The position numbers and the translations under genes are program-made. From assembly GCA_963281155.1 (NCBI GenBank), contig CAUJLY010000002.1, forward strand, positions 6,076,001-6,140,000: DNA of 64,000 nt. Reading direction: 5' to 3'. Shown piece by piece: positions 30,201 to 31,803 of this stretch (the stretch's first letter is position 1; each line of letters opens with the position of its first letter). The notes under the pieces were generated by a model, which worked only from the letters and a program-made list of their open reading frames with translations, ran no database searches and had not been told where the DNA came from. The DNA comes from Rhabditophanes sp. KR3021 (Eukaryota; Nematoda; Chromadorea; Rhabditida; Alloionematidae).

Positions 30201-31803
30201 TTTAAGGGTAAATCGATGACTCCAAAGGATCCTAAAGCTAAACTAGAGTGTGTCCACCACCACGGTTGGTATATAAGGGGTAGAAAGTACCGTCAAATCA
30301 TTTATTTTTTGTACTAACCGCAACATGCCCAAGAGACACGGTTCGGCTCAAAGTTTGATGACTTCTTTCATCAGAATGCTTGGATGCCTACATGGAGCCA
30401 GCCGAAGAACTATCAGAAGAAAGAACTTGGGCGGCTAACTTCGAAAGGATCACTACAGAAATCACTTTTGATGAAAAGTGCCAGATTAGGTACGACTTCC
30501 GCTGCATCAGAAAGAAACAATTTGTTGGCAAAGGAGAAATGCATGCCGTTCTAAGATTCAGAGATGGAAGGTTAATGACAACGAAACAACTCGAGGCAGC
30601 ATTCTACAGAAAGCCGCTAACCGTATTCCGTCTCGACTGCCTCAACATCATCAATAGATATGTGTTTGAAAACAGGCAACTAATTGAAGGTAACTTTTTC
30701 TATTTTTTCTATTATTAATGTTTTTCTATTCTAGGAAACACAAATGCTTTTGACGAAAGTAGAAGAGGAGATATTGCCCTCTTCAATAACTACACATTGA
30801 GTGGACGGAAATTGGCCTACTCCAGGGAAAAGAGTTACCCTGATTTGGTCGGAGATCCTGATAAGAAAGGAAAGAGATGGCCTTTGTCATTTGACTTCCT
30901 AATCGGAAAGGATTTGTTGGTCGAAGTCGATGGTGCCTACCACTTCAAATTGCCAAGTCGTCAAAATAGAGCAGTCAAGTTCGAGAGACAGCAACGCTAC
31001 GACAAACTGAAGAACAAGTACTGCGAAGACAATGGGTATCACCTAATCAGGATATCCTACTCAAGAGCTCAAGAAATGAGTGCAATCCTGACTCACGCCA
31101 TCAGAAGATAGGCTGCTGGGCTTAAACAAGGGGAAAGCCTGACTAAGTTGTATGGCAAAGGCAGCCAATACCAATAACTACTTCCCAAATATTTCAATAT
31201 TTTTTAATAAAGCCTAACACTTATCGTCTCAGTTTGTACCATTCTATCTCAGTGAAAAGCACATTTCCTTTGATATAGGTACATAAAATGAACAAATTCT
31301 ATCTTAAGTTTGTAATTTCTTGATGAAAAGTTTGAATTTTGATCAGTTTTAGATCTTTATGCATCCCCGTGTGTTTTGAACCCCTTAAGTAACCCAAAAA
31401 ACGCCTATACCTCTCACGAGTGCTTCGGTTCCATCCATAGCAATGGTTCTGACAACATTATCTCCTAAATGTTGGGATACCTCGAGAATGAGCTTGTTGG
31501 CGCGGCCTCCGACTTCAAGAGCGTTCAAAATTGGGGGGAGTTCGTCTTCGAATTGAACGTCGACGACGGCTCCGATGACGGCTACGATTTGCCCCTTAGC
31601 TCCACCGATGGCGACCTTGTCTCCTACTTTCTTCTGGGCAGCGGCCGAGAGGAGGGCAGATGTGTTTAGAGTACGGCTTTGGAGTCCTGAAAGTGGCTTG
31701 GAGCAAACGGGGGATTTAGTTTACCTTTGACGGCAGAGGCGGCTGGGGCGCGGAGGGTGCTGGCGACTTGGAGGCCCAAGCGAGAAACTTGTGCGGAAAC
31801 CAT
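27248..31803 (-). CDS. atp-2 (ATP5F1B): ATP synthase F1 beta subunit, mitochondrial, with large occupied introns
   Basis: This is the catalytic subunit of mitochondrial F1Fo ATP synthase. Exons: 31803-31725 (presequence), 31686-31411, 30068-29874, 29835-29568, 28484-28427, 28377-28330, 28288-27798 and 27414-27248. Visible hallmarks are the Walker [42 protein letters not shown] and [10 protein letters not shown]. Introns 1, 3, 5 and 6 are about 38-49 bp. Introns 2 (1342 bp), 4 (about 1083 bp) and 7 (383 bp) are unusually long. Intron 2 contains an antisense nuclease gene and intron 4 a broken coding remnant. All junctions close in frame except exon 4 to exon 5, within the invariant NEPP|GARAR, where no canonical GT-AG pair restores frame. 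Confidence 0.9.
27690..27750. repeat. AATTCTA-type microsatellite in ATP synthase intron 7
   Basis: About ten imperfect 6-bp units (ATTCTA, CTCTAA, TTCTGA variants). This explains the artificial Ile-Arg run that would follow the exon-7 donor. Confidence 0.85.
28575..29480 (+). pseudogene. Broken coding remnant filling ATP synthase intron 4
   Basis: Plus-strand sequence, antisense to the host gene and clearly less AT-rich than ordinary introns here. It starts with an ATG and a Lys-rich stretch that stops, then gives a frame from about 28680 to 29056 broken by a single TAG near 28883. A GTAAGT...TTTTAG intron (29057-29179) follows, and an exon to 29479 whose recognisable part ends before a hydrophobic run. 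The intron consists of roughly 28-bp AT repeats. The predicted protein is charged and helical; I do not recognise it and see no clear nuclease motif. It could be a gene carried by a mobile sequence. Confidence 0.45.
29066..29175. repeat. About 28-bp AT-rich tandem repeat
   Basis: Three to four imperfect copies of a unit built around TTAATTAAATTNNNATCTAAC, inside the small intron of the remnant in ATP synthase intron 4. Confidence 0.75.
30325..31111 (+). CDS. Vsr/EDxHD-like nuclease gene inside ATP synthase intron 2
   Basis: Antisense to the host gene. Exon 30380-30689 and exon 30735-31111 are joined by a 45-bp canonical intron. The second exon has the core of a PD-(D/E)xK-fold, very-short-patch-repair (Vsr)-like endonuclease: [24 protein letters not shown] E, D and H positions, then [10 protein letters not shown] and HLIRISYS. 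This is the layout of the EDxHD homing endonucleases of phages and giant viruses. The N-terminal half ([28 protein letters not shown]) is unrecognised. An ATG at 30325 leads into another frame and the main frame has a TGA at 30359, so the true start is uncertain (frameshift or missed exon). An AATAAA follows at about 31206. A shorter copy lies at 26573-27087. Confidence 0.7.

Follow-up and report, generated by a model that had tools for sequence, protein, structure and literature searches.

A window of 64,000 nucleotides (nt) from the nematode Rhabditophanes diutinus KR3021 (C2:6076001-6140000) holds on its minus strand the gene atp-2, which encodes the beta subunit of ATP synthase, and inside the second intron of atp-2 lies an antisense gene for a predicted nuclease of the homing type. 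Our analysis of the window and scan of the genome (44.8 Mb, six contigs) suggest that this intron belongs, as a decayed copy, to a family of spliceosomal introns that are mobile, with nuclease-driven insertion and homing as, quite probably, the best account of it. The units are multicopy, end at splice sites and carry the nuclease gene antisense to the host; the nuclease of the family in atp-2 intron 2 (family A) has the predicted fold of a phage homing endonuclease, and several copies have diverged from one another under past purifying selection.

The nuclease gene of atp-2 intron 2

The original prediction had placed in a 1342-base-pair (bp) intron 2 an antisense gene with a Vsr-like EDxHD core, and our results agree with it on the intron, the gene and the core. 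The spliced atp-2 peptide over the intron-2 junction matches ATP-synt_ab_N and atpD in the domain scan. The two exons of the antisense gene join into the 224-residue UniRef protein P0001, and 53 matches to the nuclease exon occur across the genome, more than chance would give. The predicted gene span of 30325-31111 stands at its right-hand end, but the ATG at 30325 is in a different frame from the rest of the gene. The frame stops at 31109-31111, and the 21 codons that follow still encode a tail present in other copies (compared by eye). Because this early stop precedes a still-readable tail, the copy looks decayed, although its nuclease domain is well kept.

Residues E163, D165, G166, H169, D189 and K192 of P0001 are invariant among 26 aligned rows, forming the pattern E-x-D-G-x2-H with a later D and K. 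The profile search by which the original prediction proposed to check the class succeeded with PHROGs, where families annotated as HNH and homing endonuclease match the nuclease exon at 1.5e-17 and 4.5e-16, but gave only sub-threshold Pfam matches (RAP, DUF559, DUF7255 and DUF2726), so that the class assignment rests on PHROGs and the fold. Sequence searches of PDB chains returned nothing useful for the nuclease. For the AlphaFold2 model of the family-A nuclease, I-Bth0305I was ranked first by VIA-align, the second-look aligner; Foldseek listed unrelated folds first and I-Bth0305I at rank 17, yet with the highest probability among the 50 matches listed. With this catalytic core and an I-Bth0305I/Vsr fold in the model, the family-A product is a predicted EDxHD (Vsr-like) homing-type nuclease, DNA cleavage being its predicted activity. 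Families A and B are of the EDxHD class, and a third family, C, is tentatively of a GIY-YIG-like class.

Whole introns as the repeated unit

Splice sites in reverse complement could be read at both edges of family-A copies. We compared 18 introns, each with 300 bp of flank, all against all, taking the host exons from a junction scan that used splice matrices and codon usage. At the acceptor, similarity reaches its outermost point between -15 and +3 nt in 16 of the 18 introns. At the donor it does so between -8 and +23 nt in 11 introns, and in those 11 both ends meet splice sites. Overshoot into the exons is at most 8 nt and no alignment falls wholly in the flanks. Since the similarity ends at the host splice sites, the mobile unit is the whole spliceosomal intron. 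The donor is missed in L001 (atp-2; 199 nt), L006 (367 nt), L015 (160 nt), L019 (78 nt), L029 (51 nt), L037 (66 nt) and L044 (145 nt), and the acceptor in L001 (93 nt) and L015 (58 nt).

The host genes are unrelated to each other and include NDUFS2, PDHB, DDX6, GPI, PP2C and LKB1 (the names LKB1, DDX6, SNAP29, GNL2 and DKC1 are those we take to apply from the translations). In 15 of 20 spliced host peptides a single domain stretch spans the junction: ATP-synt_ab_N, Pkinase, DEAD, Transket_pyr, C2, PP2C, A-macroglobulin TED, PGI, Mito_carr, Aa_trans, COesterase, GMPPB_C, MFS_1, FYVE and NADH dehydrogenase subunit D, the last an NCBIfam match below its full-length cut-offs. Twelve of the units in these 15 confirmed introns belong to family A, one to family B (in a GMPPA-like gene) and two to family C. 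The domain scan did not confirm the IDH3 junction, which is crossed by a match below cut-off; the Pfam domains of SRSF1 and DKC1 fall short of crossing, and SNAP29 and a putative ORC protein gave no domain match. The putative ORC (L023, scanned) and F-box (L018, outside the scan) hosts are without domain support.

All 24 introns whose splice junctions were examined are GT...AG. One further unit (L028) seems to sit in an HSP60 intron and was excluded from the junction sets, its donor not being GT in the assembly as read by eye. The donor of a family-B intron in an NRAMP-like transporter (L051) appears by eye to be GC (GCAAGT); with this donor the reading of the protein is restored.

Orientation was scored on both strands at 49 loci, a coding score being required on both flanks. 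The host scored above 5 antisense to the nuclease gene in 27 of the 49 and in sense orientation in none, the highest sense score being 4.7. The exon sides of the junctions show a weak G|GnC preference, with G at -1 in 14, G at +1 in 13 and C at +3 in 13 of 19 family-A sites. No target duplication was detected at 24 junctions, with junction repeats of 2.25 against 2.21 in shuffled pairs, and no inverted pair joining the termini was found in five units or regions. One 15-nt inverted pair of 87% identity occurs in L043, set back 114 and 23 nt from the ends, and the other units compared lack it. With neither target duplication nor terminal inverted repeats, the units, as far as their sequences tell, do not fit a DNA transposon with terminal repeats. 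A search of Rfam over positions 28000-32000, which contain two atp-2 units, gave no match, for example to a self-splicing intron, at E-values up to 1.

The second of these units lies in intron 4 and belongs to family C. The original prediction was right about the length of intron 2 and had left intron 4, also long and nuclease-bearing, unmentioned. The stretch MNEPPGARARV of atp-2 can be read only by splicing out both a neighbouring 48-bp intron and the family-C unit while retaining the AG that separates them. The placement of this candidate unit beside an old, intact 48-bp intron fits intron gain. Structure comparison of a relative (L069), on a low-confidence model, suggests a GIY-YIG-like fold for family C. 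Features of the region are collected in Table 1.

Table 1. Coordinates of units, nuclease genes and signals in the atp-2 region of the window
Feature	Position	Strand	Remarks
atp-2 intron 2, holding the family-A unit	30069-31410	-	1342 bp, GTATAG...TTTCAG; ATP synthase domain match spans the junction
Antisense nuclease gene, exon 1	30392-30689	+	N-terminal domain, decayed
Small intron of the nuclease gene	30690-30734	+	45 bp, GTA...TAG; splicing agrees with UniRef protein P0001
Antisense nuclease gene, exon 2	30735-31111	+	EDxHD domain, early stop at end; PHROGs, AlphaFold2 model with VIA-align, 53 genome matches
Promoter-like TATATAAGGG	30270-30279	+	Same motif (TATATAAGRG) at a similar place in 5 of 15 copies, a raw count with no shuffled control
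AATAAA close to the 3' end of the unit	31206-31211	+	13 of 22 copies have AATAAA within their last 110 nt (counted by eye)
Second family-A copy, 3' of atp-2	26551-27087	+	Truncated; sister to the copy in intron 2; outside any identified intron
Second candidate mobile intron of atp-2 (intron 4, family C)	28485-29517	-	1033 bp, GTAACTTAG...TTTAATTCAG
Open frame with GIY-YIG-like domain in intron 4	29180-29479	+	After its own small intron; fold inferred from relative L069
Ordinary 48-bp atp-2 intron	29520-29567	-	2 nt upstream (host sense) of the family-C unit

Copies across the genome

Locus counts given here are lower bounds. Queries from family A led to at least 57 loci after merging within 3 kb, a few of which are family B, and a typical unit (L043) matches 86 stretches in the genome. 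Family B (query L021) gave 68 matches at at least 48 loci, in part the same as the family-A loci, so that EDxHD loci from both queries together number at least 81. Family C has 30 and 53 protein matches in the genome and 47 loci. Besides atp-2 (28485-31410), an LKB1-like gene (C4:4534-4538 kb) seems to carry both kinds of unit, EDxHD and GIY-YIG-like, in different introns, and a GNL2-like gene (C2:5113-5115 kb) also seems to hold both types, its second match being weak.

Two family-A copies (L003 and L009) are 88% alike over about 1.9 kb including flanks, are not in an identified host intron and adjoin an open frame that to us resembles a retroelement aspartic protease. At L059, L060 and L061, tandem uninterrupted family-B nuclease genes alternate with genes of LEM-3-like GIY-YIG type bearing C2H2 zinc fingers; the two kinds of gene have similar leader exons, and dlg-like exon fragments lie alongside. 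The LEM-3-like genes are a further nuclease type linked to family B. We considered these arrays as the parental form of family B and dropped the idea, since they carry the dlg-like fragments; these resemble the dlg exon flanking an intronic copy (L050), and therefore the arrays look like later duplications. Apparent long inverted repeats at L046 and L047 were likewise set aside, as the wider loci show direct repeats of tandem genes.

The distribution over the contigs is uneven. Contig C6, with 11.2 Mb, makes up 25% of the genome and holds only one of 123 element loci, a weak family-C match; of 130 protein-kinase matches (126/437 candidates scored), 40 lie there (Fisher p 2e-12 versus the element loci). 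Open frames of kinases are longer on C6 (median 440 versus 329 residues), which may reflect fewer introns there. In a study of R. diutinus, its Chr6 is described as syntenic to the X chromosome of Strongyloides ratti, and a small 'sixth chromosome' of 2 Mb is also mentioned (PMC10676810). Contig order and size indicate that C6 is probably the X-syntenic Chr6, in which case the 2-Mb chromosome would be C5. In the germ line of nematodes the X chromosome is for the most part silent. The scarcity of units on C6 would therefore be explained if insertion favours germline-expressed genes.

The ratio of nonsynonymous to synonymous substitution rates (dN/dS) is low in four family-A pairs, at 0.24 (the atp-2 copy versus the copy 3' of the gene), 0.22, 0.24 and 0.20. 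This suggests that the protein was under selection while the units spread, with decay afterwards. R. diutinus is described as reproducing by meiotic parthenogenesis, which may be a reason for so many decayed copies. In a 66-row tree of six family-A, two family-B and 58 viral or environmental rows (56 of 80 viral loci kept), the six A copies form one clade with the atp-2 and 3' copies as sisters; the tree settles neither the source of the worm proteins, nor the place of family A among the viral rows, nor a single entry of A and B. Profile searches of the protein collection, which reach only relatives with common short exact words, returned three Rhabditophanes and two environmental proteins, P0001 having come from other searches.

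How the units may arise and spread

In our proposal every unit spans an entire intron, 5' and 3' splice sites included, with a nuclease gene on its antisense strand. Copies examined closely show a small intron within this gene, and signals resembling a promoter and a poly(A) site. The host spliceosome takes the unit out of the host mRNA, so that it can occupy essential genes. The nuclease, once made, would cut a coding site that lacks the unit, and repair of the break would copy the unit in, so that its frequency at the given site would rise (homing). Occasionally a new gene would be seeded and thereby gain an intron, which is the behaviour of an introner, and after fixation the nuclease gene would decay. 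We infer cutting, repair-driven copying and homing, as well as a route to new sites through either DNA or excised intron RNA. An RNA route would give exact splice-site ends and a single orientation at once. The nuclease gene's own intron is kept in both family-A copies of the window, and therefore the nuclease mRNA was not the template for copying. The original prediction, in reading the intron-2 gene as a selfish element, named the right class and too narrow a scope for what is a genome-wide intron family, the homing mechanism being putative.

Several observations weigh against our proposal. At 22 of the 49 scored loci the host score is at most 5 in both orientations, five of these (L007, L016, L019, L036 and L039) having a domain across the junction, and the atp-2 unit is itself among the less tidy, its similarity ending 199 nt short of the donor and 93 nt short of the acceptor. 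Neither Pfam nor PHROGs recognises family C as a nuclease, and many copies are broken by stops. Values of dN/dS are higher in three pairs with L003 (0.48, 0.66 and 0.67) and in a family-B pair (0.73), and one saturated pair gave no score. Simple allelic homing does not account for the spread among unrelated genes, and cutting, homing and transcription of the units are predictions from sequence.

A different reading is that these are introner-like units moved by a transposase or reverse transcriptase from elsewhere, or by copying of excised intron RNA, in which the nuclease is a passenger or helper. Dispersal over many unrelated genes is introner-like, and the exact ends and one orientation would follow from an RNA route. 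However, homing-type nucleases of two different classes are the common factor of two separate families, which favours a role for the nuclease; four pairs with a dN/dS of 0.20-0.24 speak for a protein that mattered, and the terminal repeats or target duplication expected for a transposase are missing. We consider this reading rather unlikely. Distinctly unlikely, in our view, is the entry of a conventional mobile element with a nuclease-like gene into introns that already existed. Survival of antisense copies only is what a gene with its own poly(A) signal would be expected to show, since in that orientation the signal leaves the host transcript uncut, and copies outside known introns (L002, L003 and L009) also agree with it. 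Host intron sequence would then be expected at both ends, yet in 11 of 18 introns the similarity extends to both splice sites, the old 48-bp intron of atp-2 is still intact beside a unit, and neither target duplication nor common inverted ends are found. It is very improbable that a host or domesticated multigene family of nucleases, spread by ordinary duplication, came to lie in introns by chance: many copies are broken and unit ends meet the splice sites of unrelated genes. The uninterrupted tandem family-B genes beside LEM-3-like GIY-YIG genes, and the listing of several members as proteins in UniRef, would suit such a family, but the arrays look like later duplications.

Nuclease-driven insertion and homing remain our preferred account. 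We hold in even balance the wider claim that these are autonomous introners in an animal, whose own homing nuclease inserts them precisely into exons of transcribed autosomal genes, so that new introns would be harmless at birth. Two nuclease classes would be at work in one genome, with possible copying via excised intron RNA that would be like group II retrohoming but spliced by the spliceosome.

Phage homing endonuclease genes reside in self-splicing introns or inteins, or are free-standing. The worm nucleases have a predicted fold and catalytic residues in common with the phage I-Bth0305I-type (EDxHD) and GIY-YIG enzymes (the family-C model being of low confidence), and family B has the zinc ribbons in common as well; what sets the worm genes apart is their place in spliceosomal introns and their gene signals, which are eukaryotic. 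I-PpoI in group I introns of rDNA and the yeast VMA1 intein are nuclear homing elements, both selfish and self-splicing. The worm units resemble them as selfish genes for nucleases that reside in nuclei of eukaryotes and are taken out of the RNA or the protein, but they depend on the host spliceosome.

The closest structural parallel comes from mirusviruses. In their spliceosomal introns a 2025 study counts 334 genes for nucleases, of which 132 are GIY-YIG and 16 VSR-like; it calls these introns shintrons and states that the association was previously unobserved (PMC12768974). Shintrons and worm units alike have ordinary donor and acceptor sites and homing-type nuclease genes, including GIY-YIG and VSR-like, often in conserved genes, and in both homing is deduced. 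As described there, shintrons lie in viral genomes, mostly in virion genes with a preference of nuclease class for gene, whereas the worm units lie on animal chromosomes in many unrelated housekeeping genes and differ further in that every scorable host orientation is antisense. The worm units have what defines a shintron structurally, spliceosomal splice sites (24 junctions, domains across 15 of 20) together with a homing-type nuclease, and, as in that definition, Rfam finds no group I or II intron signature in the two atp-2 units.

Introners, as described in a survey (PMC9860276), are similar introns in unrelated genes of one genome whose similarity ends at the exons. The worm units do likewise, with the small overshoot and empty flanks of the 18 introns compared. 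The survey ties introners to diverse transposable elements, and its text lacks the words nematod-, homing and endonuclease; unlike the introners surveyed there, the worm unit encodes a nuclease of the homing type, and no target duplication was detected. Judged on these likenesses, the worm units are built like a shintron and spread like an introner, with homing as a putative step. A literature search, with most subscription papers and bioRxiv outside its reach, found no nuclease-bearing spliceosomal introns in a cellular genome.

The origin of new spliceosomal introns is a long-standing question, and a 2022 survey of intron gains in nematodes (PMC9169325) discusses the reasons for which gained introns were not traced to their sources. 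A family on the chromosomes of a worm that can be cultured, many of its copies lying in housekeeping genes, would move the idea from viral metagenomes to an animal and would make intron gain by nuclease-driven insertion directly testable.
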